The position numbers were made by a program, and so were the translations under genes. Positions 5,878 to 33,996 of a stretch of DNA of 35,394 nt are shown in pieces. The stretch's first letter is position 1. Every line of letters starts with the position of its first letter. The notes under the pieces are model-generated. The model saw only the letters and a list, made by a program, of their open reading frames with translations. It searched no databases and was not told the origin of the DNA. Source of the stretch: an uncultured Fibrobacter sp. (GTDB lineage Bacteria; Fibrobacterota; Fibrobacteria; Fibrobacterales; Fibrobacteraceae); NCBI GenBank assembly GCA_946183925.1, contig CAMHDS010000019.1, forward strand, positions 1 to 35,394, in the 5' to 3' direction.

Positions 5878-6240
5878 TTAGGCAATGGTCATGAGGGTCT
5901 GACCGTCAACAACGGTATCGGTTTCCTTGACGGCGATGGAGTTCACGGTACCGGCGCAAGGAGCCACCACCGGGTTTTCCATCTTGAGGGCTTCGATGAT
6001 AGCCACTTCCTGGTTGGCTTCAACCTTATCGCCAACCTTGACCTTCAGTTTGAACACGGAACCGGCCAGCGGGCACTTCACTTCGGTACCACCGGCAGCG
6101 GCAGGGGCTGCAGCAGGAGCAGCGGCAGCGGGGGCAGCGGCCACGGGAGCAGCAGGAGCTGCGGCAACGGCGGAATCAAGAACTTCTACTTCGACGTCGT
6201 AGGTCTTGCCTTCGAAACTGATACGGACTGTTTTCTTCAT
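5878..6240 (-). CDS. Biotin carboxyl carrier subunit of a Na+-pump decarboxylase
   Basis: This 120-residue protein carries the biotin that shuttles CO2 between the carboxyltransferase and the beta subunit. It has a short N-terminal strand region (KKTVRISFEGKTYDVEVEVLD), then an Ala/Pro-rich flexible linker (about residues 24-50), and a biotinyl domain at 53-120. Lys86 in EALKMENP is the biotinylation site. This matches the MmdC/GcdC-type gamma subunits in length and order. It sits between the membrane anchor and the beta subunit. The Ala-rich linker is encoded by GC-rich GCN-codon repeats, which may be prone to length change. Confidence 0.93.
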   Translation of the reverse strand: MKKTVRISFEGKTYDVEVEVLDSAVAAAPAAPVAAAPAAAAPAAAPAAAGGTEVKCPLAGSVFKLKVKVGDKVEANQEVAIIEALKMENPVVAPCAGTVNSIAVKETDTVVDGQTLMTIA

Positions 6241-6286: not shown

Positions 6287-7156
6287 TTACTTGACAATCG
6301 TCCAAGCAGGGGAGTTAATGTTTCTGTAGGCGGTCACGCGGCAGGGCTGACCAATGGCCTGGGTCGCAGCGGCGGTCACCAGGGCAAGGAACTGATCGTT
6401 GGTCATGCCGGGGTGTTCTTCCAGGGCGGCCACGGCGGCAATGCCGAGGAAAGCCTGGAGCTGCTTGTTGGTGAAGCCCGGGTGGACGCTCTTCGCGTTC
6501 GGATCCCAGTCACAGTGGGCAGGGCCGATAGCGGCAGGAGCAGCGGCGGCAGCAGGAGTTGCCTTGACCGCAGGTGCCGGAGCCTTGACCTTGTTGAGAC
6601 CCAGCTTCGCCATAATGAAGTTCATGAGGTAGCAGAGCACCGTGAGGCCGATAATCACCACCATCACCACTATGAGGCCGGTGGCCTGGAATTCAACCAG
6701 GGAGCCGATGCCGAAGGTGTCGGATTCGCCCTTGCAGCCCTGTTCGGTGGAGTACTGGCCCTTGCAGTAGGTGGAACCCAGTTTTGCCTTCGCGATGGGG
6801 AGCACCTTGTGGCCAGCAGCGTTCTCGATAGAATCGCGGACATCGCGGGCAAGCACTGCCTGTTCGTAAGTCTTGTAAAGCACGGCGTGGTTGCCAGCAT
6901 GGGTTTCCACAATCTTGTAGACCATGGAATCGTCCATGTGGGGCATGGAGAGCTGTGCCTGCACCTGGGCTGCATCGGAAGCCTGCATCAGGGCGAGCTG
7001 TTCGTCGAACTTGCCCTTCACCTGTGCTACAGGTTCGCTTGCCACAAGCGCCGGTTGTTCAGCCGCTTCAACGGCTGCTGCGACTGCTGCATTCTGAGGT
7101 GCAGAATCCACAACCTGGGCCGAGGAATCAGCTGTGAGTTGTTCTGTTTCGTTCAT
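6287..7156 (-). CDS. OadG/MmdD-like membrane-anchor subunit with long N-terminal extension
   Basis: The 289-residue product has a single hydrophobic helix at about 158-181, an Ala/Pro-rich linker at 190-210, and a C-terminal alpha-helical segment. That segment contains GFTNKQLQAFLGIAAVAALEE and ends RVTAYRNINSPAWTIVK, the kind of tail seen in decarboxylase delta subunits. Position and linker support a role assembling the alpha subunit and biotin carrier onto the membrane. It is unusual that about 155 residues precede the membrane helix. They are acidic and Ala/Gln-rich and include two Cys in SKYCKG/QGCKG-like context (Cys131 and Cys141). Canonical OadG starts almost directly with its helix. 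By the usual topology this extension would face outward. It is the first gene of the operon, 46 bp before the carrier gene. Confidence 0.75.
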   Translation of the reverse strand: MNETEQLTADSSAQVVDSAPQNAAVAAAVEAAEQPALVASEPVAQVKGKFDEQLALMQASDAAQVQAQLSMPHMDDSMVYKIVETHAGNHAVLYKTYEQAVLARDVRDSIENAAGHKVLPIAKAKLGSTYCKGQYSTEQGCKGESDTFGIGSLVEFQATGLIVVMVVIIGLTVLCYLMNFIMAKLGLNKVKAPAPAVKATPAAAAAPAAIGPAHCDWDPNAKSVHPGFTNKQLQAFLGIAAVAALEEHPGMTNDQFLALVTAAATQAIGQPCRVTAYRNINSPAWTIVK

Positions 7157-7218: not shown

Positions 7219-7255
7219 AATTAGGGGCCAGGGATTAGGGGTCTAGGATTAAGAA
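7219..7255 (+). repeat. Heptamer array A (TTAGG type)
   Basis: About five 7-bp units, for example TTAGGGG at 7221 and again at 7235, fill the area between the STAS gene and the decarboxylase operon. One unit is shifted by a base. The rest of the gap (7256-7401) shows no gene; only a weak TGAGCC/GGCTCA inverted repeat near the STAS stop is visible. Confidence 0.6.
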
Positions 7256-11636: not shown

Positions 11637-11640
11637 GTCC

Positions 11641-11675
11641 CTAGCCCCTAGGCCCTAAATCCTAACCCCTAAGTA
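11641..11675 (-). repeat. Heptamer array B (TTAGG type, inverted)
   Basis: Five strictly phased 7-bp units (CTAGCCC, CTAGGCC and so on in plus-strand reading) carry CTA at the same position in every unit. The array ends 3 bp before the ackA ATG, so it takes up the space where a ribosome-binding site would normally be. Confidence 0.75.
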
Positions 11676-11678
11676 ACT

Positions 11679-12851
11679 ATGCGCGTACTCGTTCTTAATT
11701 GCGGCAGTTCCTCGGTCAAGTTCGCCGTTATCGACACCCAGACCAAACAGTCCATCTCCAGCGGCCTCGTCGAAAACATCGGCGTGAACGGCCACGTAAA
11801 GGCCAAGGGCCCGGTCGGAAACATCGACTTCAATTTCGACTGCCCGACTCATGCCGAAGCCGTCGCTGAAGTACAGAAGTTCCTCGCCGAACAGAAGCTC
11901 ACCGACACCATCGAAGCCATCGGCCACCGCGTAGTGCATGGCGGCAAGTACGTCAAGAGCGAAAGGGTGACGCAAGAAGTCATCGATTACATCCGCAGCA
12001 TCACGCTGTTCGCCCCGCTGCATGAACCCGCACACGCCACCGGTATGGAATGCGCCACCAAGTTCTTCCCGGGCCTCCCGCAGGTCGCCGTGTTCGACAC
12101 CGCCTTCCACCAGACCATGCCGCGCAAGGCCTACCTCTACGGCATTCCCTACAAGTTCTACGAAGAAGACAAGATCCGCCGCTACGGCGCACACGGCACA
12201 AGCCACCGCTTCGTGACCGGCGAAGCCGCCAAGATTCTCGGCAAAAAGCCGGAAGACTGCTGCTTCATCACGGCTCACCTCGGTAACGGTTCCAGCTGCT
12301 CCGCCATTTTGAACGGTAAGTGCGTTGACACCACCATGGGCTTCACCCCGCTCGAGGGCCTCATCATGGGCACTCGCTCCGGAAGCATCGACCCGGCCGT
12401 GCTCTTCTTCATCAGCAAGAAGTACGGTTACGATATTGACCGCCTCGACAAGCTCGTGAACAAGGAATCGGGCCTTCTCGGCCTCTCCGGACTCTCTAAC
12501 GACATGCGCACTTTGACGCAGGCCGCAAGCGAAGGCCACGTCGGCGCACAGATCGCCCTCGAAACCTTCGCCTACAGGCTCACCCGCGAAATCGGCGGCA
12601 TCGCCATGGCACTCCCGCGCATCGACGCGCTGGTGTTCACCGGCGGTATCGGCGAGAACAGCAAGCTCGTCCGCAAGATGGCGATGGACAACCTCAAGAT
12701 TCTCGGCTACCAGATCGACGAAGCCCGCAACGAGAAGAACGGCAAGGAATCCGGCCACATCATTAGCAAGGACGGCACCCCCACCGCGATGGTGGTCGCC
12801 ACCAACGAAGAACTGCTGATTGCACTGGATACAGAAGCTCTGGTCAAATAA
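11679..12851 (+). CDS. ackA: Acetate kinase
   Basis: The 390-residue enzyme interconverts acetate plus ATP and acetyl phosphate, the last step of acetate formation in fermentation. Catalytic features are complete: Asn7 in VLNCGSSSVK, Arg84 in GHRVVHGG, Asp140 in VFDTAFH, His172/His176 in AHGTSH, Arg233 in MGTRSGSIDPA, HLGNGSSCSAI, FTGGIGENS, and the late TNEELLIA glutamate. The phosphotransacetylase gene is not adjacent. No Shine-Dalgarno is visible; instead a heptamer repeat array runs up to 3 bp before the ATG. The gene is strongly biased to GC-ending codons, suggesting high expression. It converges on the ABC-F gene across a repeat-filled 68-bp gap. Confidence 0.98.
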   Translation: MRVLVLNCGSSSVKFAVIDTQTKQSISSGLVENIGVNGHVKAKGPVGNIDFNFDCPTHAEAVAEVQKFLAEQKLTDTIEAIGHRVVHGGKYVKSERVTQEVIDYIRSITLFAPLHEPAHATGMECATKFFPGLPQVAVFDTAFHQTMPRKAYLYGIPYKFYEEDKIRRYGAHGTSHRFVTGEAAKILGKKPEDCCFITAHLGNGSSCSAILNGKCVDTTMGFTPLEGLIMGTRSGSIDPAVLFFISKKYGYDIDRLDKLVNKESGLLGLSGLSNDMRTLTQAASEGHVGAQIALETFAYRLTREIGGIAMALPRIDALVFTGGIGENSKLVRKMAMDNLKILGYQIDEARNEKNGKESGHIISKDGTPTAMVVATNEELLIALDTEALVK

Positions 12852-12855
12852 TTCT

Positions 12856-12918
12856 GAATTCGGAGTTCGGAATTCGGAATTGAATTTCAGATTTTCAACT
12901 CCGAATTCTGAAATCCGA
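12856..12918. repeat. Heptamer array C (GAATTCG type) with inverted second half
   Basis: Nine 7-bp units fill the ackA / ABC-F gap. The first four are GAATTCG-like and the last three are their reverse complement (ACTCCGA-like). GAATTCGGAGTT (12856-12867) and AACTCCGAATTC (12897-12908) therefore form a perfect 12-bp stem. It could act as a two-way terminator hairpin, although no T-run follows. Confidence 0.8.
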
Positions 12919-12919
12919 A

Positions 12920-14731
12920 CTAAAACGCATCTAATTCTTCAAAGCGCTCGTAAGCTTTTTCGAGCGCCTTTTCTCTTTCCGCAATCTCCCCCTGCAGTTC
13001 CACAATCCGGGCCGCATTGGTATAAACTTCGGGCTTCGAAAGTTCCGTCTGGCGCTGGGCGATTTCCGCTTCCAGAGTCTCGATTTTTTCAGGCAGGGCG
13101 GCGTATTCCCGCTCCTCGTTGTAACTGCGCTTTTTCTTTTTGGGCGCCTCGGCAGGGGTAGCTCTCGCAGCGACGGAGCCCTGCTGGCCTCGAGCCTGTT
13201 CCCTTTCGGCCTTGGCACGAGCAACGCTGGCGGCTTCCTTTTCACGCTGTTTCCGGTTGGCCTCGTAATCGCTGTAACCACCCACCGCTTCAAAGACATT
13301 CCCGTTTTCTTCGATGGCCAGAATCTCCGTAGCCACCGAATCCAAGAAAGCCCGGTCGTGACTCACCGTCAAAACCGTTCCCTTGTAGTCCGCAATCAAA
13401 TCTGCCAGAAGGTCCAGAGTTTCCATGTCCAAATCGTTGGTAGGTTCGTCCAGCACCAGCACGTTGCTGGGGTGGCTAAAGAGGCAGGCCAGCAGCAGAC
13501 GGTTCCGTTCACCGCCCGAAAGTGCGCTGATAGGGCCTCGGGCCCTGTCCGCCGAAAACAGAAAATCCTGCAGGTAACTCAGCACATGGCGTTTCACGCC
13601 GTTCAGCGTAATGTAGGCCTGACCGTCGCCGATGTTTTCCACCAGGGACTTGTCTTCCCGAAGCCTGGTCCGCATCTGGTCAAAGTAGGCCACCTGCAGG
13701 TTCGTCCCCAGCCGAACCGTTCCGCTTTCCGGAGCAAGTTCTCCCAAAATCAACCGCAAGAGTGTGGTCTTTCCCGAACCGTTGGGCCCCACGATTCCTA
13801 TGCGGTCACCACGAAAAATTTCCGTGGTGAGGTTACTGATTAGGGGCGAGCCGTCATAAGAATAATTCACGTCGGTAAGGCGAGCCACCAGACGGCCGGA
13901 CTTTTCCGCCTCGGTTATCTGCATGTTCACGTTCCCCACGCGGGAGCGCCTGGCCGCCCGTTCCTCGCGCATCTTGATGAGGGTGCGGACCCGGCCCTCG
14001 TTCCTGGTACGGCGTGCCTGGATTCCTTTGCGAATCCAGACTTCTTCTTCGGCCAGTTTCTTGTCGAAAAGGGCGTTGGCCTTTTCCTCTTCGGCCAAAG
14101 CCTGGTCCCTGAACTGCACGAACTTGTCGTAAGGGAAATCCCAGCAGCGCACGCGGCCACGGTCCAGGTCAAAAATCCGGGAAGCCACCCTCCGGACAAA
14201 AGCCCGGTCGTGACTCACAAAAAGGACGGCACAGTTCAGGCGGGTGACGATTCCCTCCAACCACTGTATGGCGGGAATGTCCAGATGGTTGGTGGGTTCG
14301 TCCAGCAAAAGCAGATCCGGGTCCTGAGCGAGGGCCCGTGCAAAGAGCACGCGACGCTTTTGCCCGCCAGAAAGGCTGTCGAATAAAGCGTCGGCATCAA
14401 TGCCCGTTTTGCCGAGGACCGCCTCGGCATGGGCATTGTGCAGGCCCTCGGAGGATATACCTCCCATCACCACGTCCCGCACGGTTCCCTCCATGTGGGC
14501 GGGAATCTCCTGGATCATGCGGGAAATCCGCAAGCCGGACTTCTTGATGACCTCGCCGGACTGCACTTCCATTTCGTCTGTAAGCACCTTCAGCAAGGTA
14601 CTTTTGCCGCAACCGTTTCGGCCTACCAGGCAAATCCGGTCTCCGGCCTCGATATCAAAGCACACGTTGTCCAGCAGGGGGGCGTTCGCCCCGATGCGCA
14701 AAAGCAGGTTCTTTGCAGACAGAATGGGCAT
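12920..14731 (-). CDS. ABC-F family ATPase (Uup-like)
   Basis: The 603-residue protein has two nucleotide-binding domains and no membrane segments, as in ABC-F proteins that act on the ribosome. Domain 1 has Walker A GRNGCGKS (37-44), signature LSGGQ (120-124) and LLLLDEPTNHLD (140-151). Domain 2 has GPNGSGKT, LSGGERNR and VLVLDEPTNDLD. The linker between the domains is Arg/Lys-rich (RRTRNEGRVRTLIKMREERAA in part). The C-terminal 100 residues form a charged coiled coil, with KKKKRSYNEEREYAALPEKIE leading into it, which is the Uup layout. It starts 2 bp after the nagZ-like gene, so the two are co-transcribed. The stop lies immediately next to array C. Confidence 0.93.
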   Translation of the reverse strand: MPILSAKNLLLRIGANAPLLDNVCFDIEAGDRICLVGRNGCGKSTLLKVLTDEMEVQSGEVIKKSGLRISRMIQEIPAHMEGTVRDVVMGGISSEGLHNAHAEAVLGKTGIDADALFDSLSGGQKRRVLFARALAQDPDLLLLDEPTNHLDIPAIQWLEGIVTRLNCAVLFVSHDRAFVRRVASRIFDLDRGRVRCWDFPYDKFVQFRDQALAEEEKANALFDKKLAEEEVWIRKGIQARRTRNEGRVRTLIKMREERAARRSRVGNVNMQITEAEKSGRLVARLTDVNYSYDGSPLISNLTTEIFRGDRIGIVGPNGSGKTTLLRLILGELAPESGTVRLGTNLQVAYFDQMRTRLREDKSLVENIGDGQAYITLNGVKRHVLSYLQDFLFSADRARGPISALSGGERNRLLLACLFSHPSNVLVLDEPTNDLDMETLDLLADLIADYKGTVLTVSHDRAFLDSVATEILAIEENGNVFEAVGGYSDYEANRKQREKEAASVARAKAEREQARGQQGSVAARATPAEAPKKKKRSYNEEREYAALPEKIETLEAEIAQRQTELSKPEVYTNAARIVELQGEIAEREKALEKAYERFEELDAF

Positions 14732-19306: not shown

Positions 19307-19313
19307 AATTATA

Positions 19314-19455
19314 ACCTAGGGGTTAGGGTATGAGGTATGAGGTCGGGGCGATGCCCCTCTGAGGTATGAGGTTATTAAATAAAAAGCTCAAAGGGAGCCG
19401 GAGGCGACCGACCTCATCACTCAAAGCGAGTGTAACGAGCGACCCCATAACTCTA
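19314..19455. repeat. Heptamer array D (GTATGAG / ACCTCAT) with palindromes
   Basis: The left arm has TTAGG- and GTATGAG-type 7-bp units and encloses a GGGGC-GAT-GCCCC hairpin (19345-19357). The right arm has units such as ACCTCAT and CACTCAA. A segment CTCAAAGCGAG follows that recurs at 22403 and, in variant form, at 33945. The last unit contains the stop codon of the downstream sugar transferase. No gene lies in this 146-bp gap. Confidence 0.65.
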
Positions 19456-22235: not shown

Positions 22236-22275
22236 AAGGCGTCTCCATTTTGAATTTTACGGCGGTAAATGTAGT

Positions 22276-22317
22276 AATTAGGGGTTAGGAGTTAGAGACT
22301 AGGGGCTAGGGTTTCAG
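22276..22317 (+). repeat. Heptamer array E (TTAGG type)
   Basis: Six units of the form NNNTAGG or close variants (AATTAGG, GGTTAGG and so on) run in strict 7-bp phase. They lie about 40 bp upstream of hom and 130 bp upstream of the divergent sugar transferase. Confidence 0.75.
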
Positions 22318-22365
22318 GTCACAAAGCTTCGTTTCATGCAAAACTTTTGAAACCTAATGTTTCTC

Positions 22366-22428
22366 ACCTCAAAGCGACCCGCAAGGGGAGCGACCTCACA
22401 CCTCAAAGCGAGTGCAGCGAACGAGCCG
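22366..22428. repeat. CACCTCAAAGCGA repeats with palindrome
   Basis: Two copies of CACCTCAAAGCGA occur at about 22367 and 22399, separated by a CCCGCAAGGGG hairpin. The same block follows array D and, as CACCTCAAAGCAAG, array H. It lies directly upstream of the promoter of the second sugar transferase. Confidence 0.6.
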
Positions 22429-22433
22429 ATTGC

Positions 22434-22439
22434 TATATT
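22434..22439 (+). promoter_or_regulatory. -10 element 7 bp before ATG (leaderless candidate)
   Basis: TATATT is followed by only 7 nt before the sugar transferase ATG at 22447. No Shine-Dalgarno is present, so the transcript would start at or next to the A of the ATG. Confidence 0.5.
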
Positions 22440-22446
22440 TACTCCC

Positions 22447-23619
22447 ATGGAACAGGAATCGGTAAATCCGGCCATTGACTCTATACTCACAGAGCAGCGG
22501 CTGAAAAACATCGTCTATCCGGCCCGGCTTTTCCGGGCGCGGCTGAACGAGGAGTTCCTGCGGGCGAACCGCACCCGCAAGCCCTTCATCTTTATCCAGA
22601 TTTATGCCCACCAGTTCGACCTGCTGGGCTGGGCCTGGCCAAACCAGACGATCGAGCAGACCTGGCGAATCAGCCTCCTTACCATGTTCTCCCACCTCCG
22701 GTTCATCGATGTCATCGGCTACCTTTCCGATGGTAACGGTATCGGTGTCATCCTGCTGAATTCGGACCTTTCCACCCTGGAGAACATCCGCAAGGAGATT
22801 CTCCACAGGCTAAACGACGCGGGCCTTATCCAGAACCTGCGGCACAAGCCCAGAAAGCCCATTTTCAAGGCCTACCTGTACACAGGACTGCAAGAAAAAG
22901 AAAATCTTGAACTGGCGGATACCATCAAGGAATTCAACAGCACCAACGGCAGTTTCTTCCGTGTTGACCGCCTGAACATGGACCATATCTGGCCCCACCC
23001 CCACAAGATCCGTTTTCGGCATATCATCAAGCGGTGCGTGGACTTTACAGGCGCCCTGCTGGGCCTGATTATCCTTTCGCCGGTGCTTTTATTCTGTGCC
23101 CTGGCCGTAAAGATCAGCGACCCCAAGGGGCCCATCATCTTCAAGCAGACCCGCGTGGGCAAGAACGGCTCGCTGTTTACCATGTACAAGTTCCGAAGCA
23201 TGTACGTAGATGCCGAAGAACGCAAAAAAGAGCTCATGGCCCTGAACGAGACCGGCGGCAAGACCTTCAAAATCAAGAACGACCCCCGTATCTACCCCTT
23301 CGGCCGTATTCTCCGCAAGTTCAGCCTCGACGAACTGCCCCAGCTGGTGAACATCATCAACGGCGACATGTCCATCGTGGGGCCCCGTCCGCCTCTCCCC
23401 GAAGAGGTGGAAACCTACGAACCCTGGCACCGCATGCGCCTTTCCGTAACCCCCGGACTCACCTGCATCTGGCAGGTCAGCGGCCGCAGCAACATCAGTT
23501 TCGAAGGGCAGATGCGCCTGGACAACGACTACATCCGCCGTGGCGGCAAGCTGGCCGACGACTTCAAGCTCATCCTCAAGACCTTCAAGGTCGTTTTCAA
23601 GGGCGAAGGGGCGTATTAG
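22447..23619 (+). CDS. Sugar-phosphate transferase with degenerate GGDEF-like N-terminal domain
   Basis: The 390-residue protein ends with a short-form polyprenyl sugar-phosphate transferase domain. Its parts are one membrane helix (about 199-222), IIFKQTRVGKNGSLFTMYKFRSM (230-252), RKFSLDELPQLVNIINGDMSIVGPRPP (290-316), and TPGLTCIWQVSGRS. The first 180 residues are not a membrane domain. They show the strand/helix pattern of a nucleotidyl-cyclase-like fold: KPFIFIQIYAHQFDLL, then LRFIDVIGYLSDGNGIGVILLN and LENIRKEILHRL. This resembles a GGDEF domain whose GGDEF loop is replaced by SDGNG, so it is probably not catalytic. The ATG at 22447 is preferred over one at 22357, which lies in repeat DNA. 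It likely starts a second glycan. Confidence 0.88.
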   Translation: MEQESVNPAIDSILTEQRLKNIVYPARLFRARLNEEFLRANRTRKPFIFIQIYAHQFDLLGWAWPNQTIEQTWRISLLTMFSHLRFIDVIGYLSDGNGIGVILLNSDLSTLENIRKEILHRLNDAGLIQNLRHKPRKPIFKAYLYTGLQEKENLELADTIKEFNSTNGSFFRVDRLNMDHIWPHPHKIRFRHIIKRCVDFTGALLGLIILSPVLLFCALAVKISDPKGPIIFKQTRVGKNGSLFTMYKFRSMYVDAEERKKELMALNETGGKTFKIKNDPRIYPFGRILRKFSLDELPQLVNIINGDMSIVGPRPPLPEEVETYEPWHRMRLSVTPGLTCIWQVSGRSNISFEGQMRLDNDYIRRGGKLADDFKLILKTFKVVFKGEGAY

Positions 23620-23662
23620 GGGTTAGGATTTAGGGGCTAGGTAATAGGTCTTAGGTTTTAGG
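23614..23662 (+). repeat. Heptamer array F (NNNTAGG), includes a stop codon
   Basis: Seven consecutive 7-bp units have TAGG at an invariant position and variable first three bases. The first unit, TATTAGG, contains the TAG stop of the sugar transferase. Confidence 0.85.
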
Positions 23663-24879: not shown

Positions 24880-26873
24880 GCCGCAGGAATCGGCCGATAC
24901 CCGAGCAACTTCATGCTGTAGAGCGCAGTGCCCTTGCTGATGCTGCGCACGCCGGTAGCATAACCGAAAATTTTCCGCAGCGGGACTTCCGCTTTCAAAA
25001 AATGGGTCTTGCCGTCACCGCCGATTTCTTTCACCTTGCCGTCCCGTGACTGGATATCGCCGGTCACAAGACCTGCAAAGTTCACGGGGCATTCCAGCGA
25101 AAGCTCCATGATGGGTTCGTAAAGTTCCACATCGGCAGGCTTGATCAGCTTTGTAACCGCATCAGCGCAGGCCTTCTTGATCATAGGCGGGAGCGCCCCC
25201 TCGGTCCAGGTGAACTCGTGGACCTCAAAGCGCACGCCTACCAGCGCTCCCTTGCCGAGAATCCCGACTTCGGCAGATTCCAGCAGGGCGGAACGCACAC
25301 CGGCCAGAATCTCGCGGGGAGCAGTCTCCAAAAATTCCGCAGAAAGCCGTATATCATGGGCATCGCCTTCCAAAGGCGTCGCCGAAAGCTTGATAGAAAT
25401 CTTGTGGGGCCCAAGCTGGAACGAATTTTCTACGGGACCCACCTCGCGACATAAACGCTCTTGCCAGCGCACCTCGGGGCTACCCGCCTTCACTTCGCAA
25501 CCGAATTCCCGTTTCAGGCGCGAAAGCAGCACATCCAGCTGCACCTCGCCTACGGTATGCAAGTACCAGAAACCACCGTCATCCTTCTGGACGCGGAAAC
25601 TGGGATCCATACGGCCCAGCATGTTCAGGCTCTTATCTACATGCAAAAAGTCCTCTGAACCCAGGCACTCCACGCGGGTCTGCAAAAGGGGCTGATACTT
25701 GTCGCGGATGGAGGCTCGAGGCTCGAGGCTCGGGGTTCGAGGTTCGGGGTTCGTGCCTCGCGCCTCACTTCTCTCGTCTCTCGTCTCTCGCCTCTCGTCT
25801 AAATAAATCACCTCTCCAAGTTCCGTCTCGAAAGGGGTACGCATCGCGTAAATATCGCCCGAACGGATTTCATCTACTGGCACCAGCAGGTTCGCCTTCA
25901 GTCTCGAAAACTCAAAACCCGCTGGCCACGCCTTCCGTTCCAAATCCGTGTGGCTCCGGAATATGGAAATCTCCCCCACGCCCTTGAAATACCGGAGGCG
26001 TATCACCTGGCCCAGTTCGCCCTTGTCAAAGGCGGGAACCTCGGGCAAAAAGAAGGTCAATGCCGTCACGAGACTCCGCACGCCAAAACCTTCCATGGCA
26101 GAGCCTGCGTAGCACAAGGCGTAATCATCGCTTGCCGCCAGGGCCTTCAGCCCCCGTAAAAGAATCTTCGCCGGCACAGGTTTCCCTTCCATGGCCAGTT
26201 TCAAAATTTCGTCGTCAAAATTGCTGGCAAATTCCACCGCCTCGGCGTAATGCTTTTTTAAGTCGTGGGCCTGATCCCAACCGTCATCCACGTTCCAGCC
26301 TTCGTCCACCACCTCTTCGCCGGTAGCGGAATGTTCCAGGCGGCTTTTGCTCAGCACGTCCAGCACGCCGGTCATCTTGCCGTCCCGGTATTCCGGCAGA
26401 GTCATGAGCACCGGACGCACGCCCAGAACCTCTTCGATGTTGATAAGGGTTTCGTCCAGGGAATAGTCGGGATTGTCCAGCTTGTTCACGAACAAAATCG
26501 TCCGAACGCCCGCCTCCCGGAGTTTCTTGAAAGCGGCCACTGTCTGGGTCTCTACACCGCTGGCGGCACTCACCACAAGGATTGCCCCTTCCACCGCCGT
26601 GAGAGCCGTATCCACCTCGGCACCAAAATCCACGTGACCCGGCGTATCGATAAAATTGAACCAGGTATCCTTCCACTCAAAGTGGGCCACGCCGCTTTCG
26701 ATGGTGATGCCCCTGTCCTTTTCTTCGGGCAGGTAGTCCATGGTGGCAAGGCCTTCTTCTACGCGGCCCGGACGACGCACCTCCCCTGCCGTGAACAGAA
26801 TCCGTTCCGACAAAGTGGTCTTGCCCGCATCCACGTGGGCAAGGATGGCGATGTTCCGGACAGGCTGCGACAT
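24867..26873 (-). CDS. EF-G-like translational GTPase (EF-G2/TetM-related)
   Basis: The 668-residue protein has the five-domain plan of EF-G relatives. The G domain has AHVDAGKTT (12-20), RGITI (54-58), DTPGH (76-80) and NKLD (130-133). Domain II covers about 285-355. Domain III contains HTVGEVQLDVLLSRLKREFG. Domains IV and V are present, with LYEPIMELSLECP, GDIQSRDGKV and FGYATGVRSISKG. It likely acts on ribosomes, but its closeness to both EF-G2 and ribosome-protection proteins leaves the role open. It is shorter than canonical EF-G. Residues 359-388, at the domain II/III border, are an Arg/Glu/Pro-rich insert encoded by a 13-unit heptamer array. The gene follows the coiled-coil gene by 4 bp. 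Confidence 0.9.
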   Translation of the reverse strand: MSQPVRNIAILAHVDAGKTTLSERILFTAGEVRRPGRVEEGLATMDYLPEEKDRGITIESGVAHFEWKDTWFNFIDTPGHVDFGAEVDTALTAVEGAILVVSAASGVETQTVAAFKKLREAGVRTILFVNKLDNPDYSLDETLINIEEVLGVRPVLMTLPEYRDGKMTGVLDVLSKSRLEHSATGEEVVDEGWNVDDGWDQAHDLKKHYAEAVEFASNFDDEILKLAMEGKPVPAKILLRGLKALAASDDYALCYAGSAMEGFGVRSLVTALTFFLPEVPAFDKGELGQVIRLRYFKGVGEISIFRSHTDLERKAWPAGFEFSRLKANLLVPVDEIRSGDIYAMRTPFETELGEVIYLDERRETRDERSEARGTNPEPRTPSLEPRASIRDKYQPLLQTRVECLGSEDFLHVDKSLNMLGRMDPSFRVQKDDGGFWYLHTVGEVQLDVLLSRLKREFGCEVKAGSPEVRWQERLCREVGPVENSFQLGPHKISIKLSATPLEGDAHDIRLSAEFLETAPREILAGVRSALLESAEVGILGKGALVGVRFEVHEFTWTEGALPPMIKKACADAVTKLIKPADVELYEPIMELSLECPVNFAGLVTGDIQSRDGKVKEIGGDGKTHFLKAEVPLRKIFGYATGVRSISKGTALYSMKLLGYRPIPAAFRP
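25710..25800 (-). repeat. In-frame heptamer array I inside the EF-G-like gene
   Basis: Thirteen 7-bp units occupy 91 bp of coding sequence. Read on the coding strand, the first units are AGACGAG/AGGCGAG-like, the middle ones AACCCCG-like and the last AGCCTCG-like, roughly an inverted version of the first. The reading frame stays open throughout. Confidence 0.85.
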
Positions 26874-27264: not shown

Positions 27265-27348
27265 GTGGAATGCTAGATGTGGAATGTGGAATGCATAATT
27301 CCACACCTCACATTACACATTGCGGCGTAGCCGCCCACATTCCACATT
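27265..27348. repeat. Heptamer array G (GTGGAAT / CCACATT)
   Basis: Twelve units in unbroken 7-bp phase (84 bp) begin with GTGGAAT-like units and end with CCACATT-like units, their inverse. A GCGGCGTAGCCGC palindrome fills exactly two units in the middle. The array overlaps the first bases of the glnN stop codon. Confidence 0.85.
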
Positions 27349-33940: not shown

Positions 33941-33996
33941 TCACCTCAAAGCAAGCCATAGGCTTGCGAACTCATCACTCATAACCCACAACTCAT
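33941..33996. repeat. Heptamer array H (AACTCAT type) with palindrome
   Basis: Eight 7-bp units run up to and overlap the first base of the rpsA stop. Four are AACTCAT, CACTCAT, AACCCAC and AACTCAT. A palindromic AAGCAAGCCATAGGCTTGCG sits in the same phase. An inverted partner (GGTTAGCGATGAGT) lies at about 33888-33901. Confidence 0.75.

Follow-up and report, generated by a model that had tools for sequence, protein, structure and literature searches.

Period-7 repeat arrays at gene borders in Fibrobacter and their possible origin as arms of short fold-back elements

Heptamer arrays of the window and their period

The analysed stretch of DNA (the window) encompasses 35,394 nucleotides of contig 19 of a Fibrobacter MAG (2.76 Mb, 81% complete), whose homoserine dehydrogenase shows 99% identity to rumen Fibrobacter records. 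A first-pass annotation had described tandem heptamers at eight intergenic places of this window, with a strict period of 7 bp, units that differ between loci and in many cases an inverted second arm. We have scored arrays as log-odds runs of lag-p identity with shuffled sequences as null (dinucleotide shuffles for the window), using a lag-7 cut-off of ≥9.5 in the window and a strict cut-off of T≥12 in a 428 kb sample of the home genome. At lag 7, seven of the eight places score at least 9.5 (11637-11672, 12850-12921, 19317-19343, 22272-22323, 23616-23662, 27277-27323 and 33970-33995), with 7219-7255 being weak. The strongest array of the window, which was absent from the earlier list, resides inside a coding gene (25702-25800, score 50.2). 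Genes were called with a small script of our own that was trained on Fibrobacter codon usage, and their starts are thus approximate and their stops reliable.

7219-7255 (+), weak TAGG-family array (TTAGGGG CCAGGGA TTAGGGG; lag-7 score 5.1, lag-14 score 11.4, TRF period 14), adjoined by a promoter-like box of the gene at 6287-7156 (-)
11637-11672 (-), TAGG-family array reading CCCTAGC... on the minus strand (score 14.2), at the right edge of its gap, 6 bp ahead of the ackA start
12850-12921 (no strand), filled ackA-uup gap with left arm AATTCGG and right arm CCGAATT (arm match 0.88)
19312-19455 (no strand), composite element of the nadC gap with a TTAGGGT/ATGAGGT arm, GAGCGACC-type palindromes and an ACTCA right side
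22272-22323 (+), TAGGGG array separating the promoters of two divergent genes, hom and the sugar-transferase gene
23616-23662 (+), TTAGGGG/CTAGGTA array with its first base at the sugar-transferase stop codon
24867-26873 (-), EF-G-like GTPase gene (668-aa ORF) with an array at residues ~357-390
25702-25800 (no strand), paired-arm array with a TCGAGGC and a TCTCTCG arm, in frame in the EF-G-like gene
27265-27348 (no strand), glutamine synthetase III gap with a GTGGAAT left arm, a GCGGCGTAGCCGC hairpin and a CCACATT right arm
33966-33995 (-), AACTCAT array in right-edge orientation, whose last unit abuts the S1 gene with no base in between

The product of the EF-G-like gene is a paralogue whose best NCBIfam matches fall far under the cut-offs for EF-G and tetracycline-protection proteins and whose hypervariable linker (~residues 357-390) tolerates in-frame repeat elements. 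The window also contains a 120-aa ORF at 5878-6240 (-) with CGGCAG-rich tandem repeats at 6093-6171 (periods 6, 15 and 39).

The period is strictly 7, and over 428 kb of the home genome the observation withstands the refuting condition that the annotation had set, a lag-7 signal not exceeding that at lags 6 and 8. In non-coding DNA of the window, we find seven arrays of period 7 compared to 0.06 in shuffled sequences, and none of period 6 or 8. In the home genome (64 kb of non-coding DNA within the 428 kb), there are 36 arrays of period 7 compared to 0.0 after shuffling, three of period 6 and none of period 8, with lags 14, 21 and 28 being raised as multiples of 7. In 854 kb sampled around hom from about 44 species of the genus, period 7 yields 95 arrays, period 6 yields 19 and period 8 yields 4. 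Nearly all compared genomes are MAGs, with one per species and samples of 15-430 kb for the relatives. Despite this source, there is a negligible probability that the arrays constitute a chance product or a low-complexity artefact of metagenome assembly, since the shuffled controls rule out a chance origin in both the window and the genome sample and the same arrays recur in independently assembled genomes from many studies.

Within the sampled stretches, the distribution of arrays is sporadic. A genome from another family of the class (G027) is rich in arrays, as is G038, whereas their congeners G029 and G031 show none, and neither does the F. intestinalis clade, where their absence from 65 kb is provisional due to the small sample. 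In a G+C-rich genome from another family in the order, we observe one long degenerate region of paired heptamer-like repeats (L149:12544-12729), so that such repeats may extend further within the phylum.

Architecture and strand polarity of the elements

Most long arrays form one arm of an inverted, fold-back pair. A complete element measures ~40-320 bp and consists of two inverted arms surrounding a mostly unique centre, with the size of an arm set at ~4-6 tandem units of 7 bp. In the window, the inverted second arm is clear at 12856, 25702 and 27265 and partly so at 19314, but it is not a property of all eight places. That units differ between loci was correctly noted, and this diversity is real but mostly a matter of few families, each recurring at many loci: in the home genome, 60 of 65 arrays belong to the three loose families nnnTAGG, nnTGAGT/ACTCA and AATTCGG, with GACGAGA and a few others besides.

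The paired architecture is cleanest in G027, where an arm of ~4-6 units located a few bases from a gene is followed by a unique centre of ~25-125 bp and by the inverse arm against the next gene. All 17 pairs of arrays less than 200 bp apart in this genome are inverted matches, compared to about a tenth of pairs beyond 1.5 kb; an arm-match test restricted to the home genome was weak, as neighbouring elements were merged. The unit families of G027 recur at many loci but its centres do not, and only two of the 35 centres have a REP-like stretch in common, with the remainder being unrelated. We did not see a folding signal in the centres of G027.

A short core, GGCGCCAAAGGCGC, is common to four elements of the home genome. 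A core resembling ATAATTTGGCGCCAAAGGCGCGA.TATAA is found between ACTCA-type arms at L119:19611-19932, L120:11146-11313, L123:19758-19915 and L135:16590-16757, and these elements possibly define a sub-family sharing one centre. Another type of small palindromic repeat (CCTCAAAGCGA...GAGCGACCTCA) occupies more than ten places per genome in the home genome (19312-19455 of the window among them), G016 and G022, often beside heptamer arms.

The arrays display a polarity. On the plus strand, those bordering a gap on its left side tend to be G-rich and those on its right side C-rich, as manifested in ratios of 17:3 (left) versus 3:16 (right) in the home genome (p=2e-5), 19:5 versus 11:46 in its relatives (p=6e-7) and 19:5 versus 3:17 in G027 (p=5e-5). 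Within Fibrobacter, the C content of the 5' arm is only 4-9%. The trend is alike for nearly all strand arrangements of the neighbouring genes, and the rule is tied to the edge of the element or gap and not to the direction of transcription.

Turnover at orthologous gene junctions

Turnover is evident at the junction between the sugar-transferase gene and nadC. In its ancestral state, the stop and start codons overlap (CAGTAATG / CAGTAATGTACGG) and there is no gap, as observed in ~21 species, among them outgroups and the F. intestinalis clade. An element of 43-172 bp is placed exactly at this overlap site in 35 other species, with units from at least nine unrelated families. Mapped on the hom-gene tree, the eleven states of the junction require at least 30 changes, a number that rests on the tree of a single gene and that is inflated by allele exchange between species, since near-identical elements in distant species identify some of the changes as such exchange. 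There is no evident target-site duplication at this junction, and insertion sites elsewhere are too diverged to show one. In L035, L037, L044, L045 and L080, different heptamer arms of the nadC gap are followed by a common outer tail, aaccgaaggttataat, before the ATG, suggesting in situ replacement of the arms with the ribosome-binding tail being kept. A side observation concerns L053-L056 and L078 (labelled Bacteroidaceae / Candidatus Colenecus, from horse gut), whose homoserine dehydrogenase is 83-87% identical to that of Fibrobacter, likely reflecting gene transfer or mis-labelling, and is not surrounded by heptamer arrays.

The comparison of orthologous gaps, which the annotation had recommended and which we carried out at species level, reveals units gained and lost and whole elements replaced between sister species at other junctions as well. 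The ackA-uup element is missing in L036 and L040, which contain a gap of 42 bp, and the gap orthologous to 22272-22323 is either empty or carries other heptamer families in other species. At the 3' end of the sugar-transferase gene, the array ranges from ~7 to 18 units among six close relatives, is replaced by (ATGTGGA)n in L034/L040 and is empty in L010/L072. Even within the EF-G-like gene, arrays that keep the reading frame and are built of stop-free units (GACGAGA, or AATTCGG in L012/L013) alternate with array-free alleles in L009/L010/L034/L036/L040.

The two arms of an element are paired at birth and subsequently drift, as they match within each element but not within a single line of descent. 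The own-arm match at nadC is 12.86, compared to 7.67±0.53 after permutation with arms of other species (0 of 5000 permutations), whereas in the ATGTG descent group (ten species, n=10, with low power) own arms do not match better than others (13.3 versus 13.7, p=0.82).

These results bear on the suggestion of the annotation that a 7-nt register is under selection, a reading that we have considered with the arms as protein-binding or RNA-hairpin signals such as translation stops, terminators, insulators or G-quadruplexes. Arrays do reside at gene borders, many units contain TAG or TGA and would thereby provide stops in all frames, and the C-poor 5' arms would pair only with the opposite arm. Additionally, quadruplex formation in vitro is described for G-rich heptamers of Xanthomonas and Nostoc (PMC4692102). 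Judged from sequence, only the TAGGGG family of Fibrobacter could do this, as opposed to AATTCGG, GACGAGA and ATGTGGA. There is no excess of stop codons at 3' gene edges, with stops on the outward strand being equally frequent at starts and ends of genes, and we thus reject a function in translation stop. We also reject a maintained RNA hairpin, given the lacking own-arm advantage in the descent group and the lacking folding signal in the centres of G027. Arrays moreover also occur where the flanking genes diverge and within a coding sequence, sister-species gaps are empty and unit sequences are unrelated. The polarity that follows the gap edge, the stop-codon test, the turnover of units and the complementarity that is not kept between arms all disfavour a selected register or hairpin, which was not borne out and which we regard as unlikely.

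Origin of the elements and relation to known repeats

Once present, arrays slip by whole units. Among clean insertions and deletions of at least 3 nt, 23 of 32 inside arrays are multiples of 7 compared to 6 of 38 outside (p=2e-6), a count that requires a filter for clean flanks as replaced elements are otherwise aligned to each other. Neutral slippage of a DNA polymerase, preferentially by 7 nt, might have built the arrays from local sequence, with template switching across a short inverted repeat copying the second arm and no mobile element being involved. Besides the 7-bp steps, this would account for the unique centres, and it finds a parallel in the dominance of heptamers among long bacterial repeats, where they constitute the commonest class of 5-11 nt in many bacteria, for which a polymerase footprint of 7 nt was suggested (Mrazek 2007, cited through PMC4692102 and PMC4679880). 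However, slippage from chance seeds should leave arrays of 2-3 units, and these are not commoner than in shuffles, with the excess starting at 4 units and peaking at 4-5, so that arms look as if they were made as units of set size. Similarly, 2-copy 7-mers are not enriched outside arrays, where masking somewhat lowers the exact count at period 7 and leaves the one-mismatch count unaffected. We have therefore rejected generic 7-nt slippage from chance seeds, although a 2-copy seed could be short-lived and hence invisible. The insertion site at nadC has no spare DNA, one unit recurs at many loci, and arms that do not stay matched argue against continuing arm-to-arm copying. Loss of mismatch repair is rejected as a cause, with MutS being intact and scoring above the cut-off in 39 of 41 genomes. 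Compared to the insertion of fold-back elements, slippage with template switching thus performs better on the unique centres. It performs less well on the target that lacks a gap, on the absence of seeds and on units being shared among loci, and we consider it a tentative and rather improbable alternative.

The active process making or templating 7-bp units that the annotation had envisaged is supported by the gain and loss of whole units and the replacement of elements; for templating by a reverse transcriptase or a Y1 transposase, both enzymes are absent from the home genome and from the array-rich G027. Our search for a maker covered these two families. The REP-type Y1 transposase (PF01797) was not found in the home genome, its two nearest relatives G016 and G022 and the 98%-complete G027, and reverse transcriptase (PF00078) was not found in the home genome, G003, G009 and G027, which led us to reject both RAYT and reverse transcriptase as makers in the genomes searched; the cognate Y1 transposase that characterizes REPIN/RAYT systems is thus lacking. 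Templated synthesis or mobilisation by a resident telomerase-like reverse transcriptase or a REP-associated Y1 transposase might be suggested by TAGGGG units, which we take to resemble telomeric heptamers, and by a polarity of arms presumably reminiscent of paired REP sequences. It would have to rely on an enzyme too divergent for the Pfam models and to cope with several unit families in one genome, and is largely refuted and very improbable.

We give about an even chance to a reading in which most arrays represent the arms of short inserted fold-back elements, made by a putative enzyme and modified by slippage in steps of 7 bp. This reading builds on the observed insertion into the gap-less nadC junction, the pairing of arms at birth, their discrete size, the 7-bp steps, the rapid turnover and the unique centres. 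In such a scheme, matched pairs of arms would arrive ready-made at gene borders, most likely by insertion of a fold-back (MITE-like) element or by a hairpin-templated event that would write both arms at once. Each arm would afterwards gain or lose whole units by slippage and drift independently, and recombination in the genes on either side would carry elements from one species to another. The elements look neutral or selfish, with purifying selection probably retaining copies that contact a start or stop codon or preserve the reading frame. The unique centres are odd for a MITE, there is no target-site duplication to be seen at nadC and Y1 is absent from the home genome and G027, all of which weigh against fold-back insertion. 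In general, the fast appearance, change and loss at gene borders points to an unrecognised insertion-and-slippage process and not to a gene-control code.

Eukaryotic Foldback elements and bacterial MITEs combine long inverted arms of tandem repeats with a variable centre and differ in presence between relatives. The Fibrobacter elements share these features, including the inverted tandem-repeat arms around a variable loop that typify Foldback elements, but they are devoid of an identified transposase (among the Y1 and RT families searched), of a target-site duplication at nadC and of common centres. They differ from MITEs, which share terminal repeats and internal sequence, in that arm families are shared whereas centres are unique, except for the GGCGCCAAAGGCGC core.

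Our search of a limited set of literature has retrieved no paper on heptamers of Fibrobacter. With tandem 7-bp units far above chance, a chiefly intergenic location and whole-unit differences in copy number among relatives, the arrays correspond to heptanucleotide LSSRs or STRRs, and the likeness to cyanobacterial repeats noted in the annotation is apt. They are not STRRs in the strict sense, which belong to cyanobacterial hosts and named units such as CCCCART, since the host is a member of the Fibrobacterota with units nnnTAGG, nnTGAGT and AATTCGG. Close parallels are found in the GGGAATC repeats of Xanthomonas (PMC4692102), which are located between genes near stop codons, vary in array length between species and often form two convergent (inverted) arrays whose 5' side carries the G-rich strand, an arrangement that we also find in Fibrobacter. 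Whereas each Xanthomonas genome has a single unit family and two of the species have 83% of positions conserved (PMC4692102), Fibrobacter contains several families and its junctions are empty or refilled between sister species. Degenerate 7-bp units are equally a property of cyanobacterial STRRs (Nostoc GGGGA(T/C)T; P6b of the trnL intron, TDNGATT and NNTGAGT), where heptamers of P6b flank a stem-loop, show whole-unit indels and undergo class replacement at one locus, with the class NNTGAGT being identical to a Fibrobacter unit family (PMC4476775). The trnL case is a single intron locus (PMC4476775) and the Nostoc GGGGAYT arrays are rarely paired, whereas the Fibrobacter elements are paired and found genome-wide at gene borders. 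The TAACTGA repeats of Beggiatoaceae, some Cyanobacteria and Bacteroidetes (PMC4679880) are likewise intergenic and sporadically distributed, and their reverse complement TCAGTTA is a Fibrobacter unit, but they comprise a single unit in mostly 2-6 copies upstream of start codons, with all but one set being direct.

The dominance of 7-bp units among longer bacterial tandem repeats has remained an open remark in the literature. In Fibrobacter, a genus with dozens of sequenced species, a single junction is empty, filled and refilled by different heptamer elements, so that birth, pairing, slippage and loss can be traced phylogenetically and put to the test in cultures. The finding that arms are paired at birth and unmatched later, together with the missing seeds of 2-3 units, argues against polymerase slippage as sole origin. 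It is conceivable, though doubtful at present, that prokaryotes harbor a type of fold-back mobile element whose ends consist of about five interchangeable 7-bp units, inserted by a putative enzyme as a matched pair around arbitrary DNA, with the heptamers of Xanthomonas, Nostoc and Beggiatoaceae being relics of the same process. We read the Fibrobacter elements as a fast-turnover variant of the known bacterial heptanucleotide repeats, in which several unit families per genome, the pairing by element and the very fast turnover at fixed gene junctions are new.
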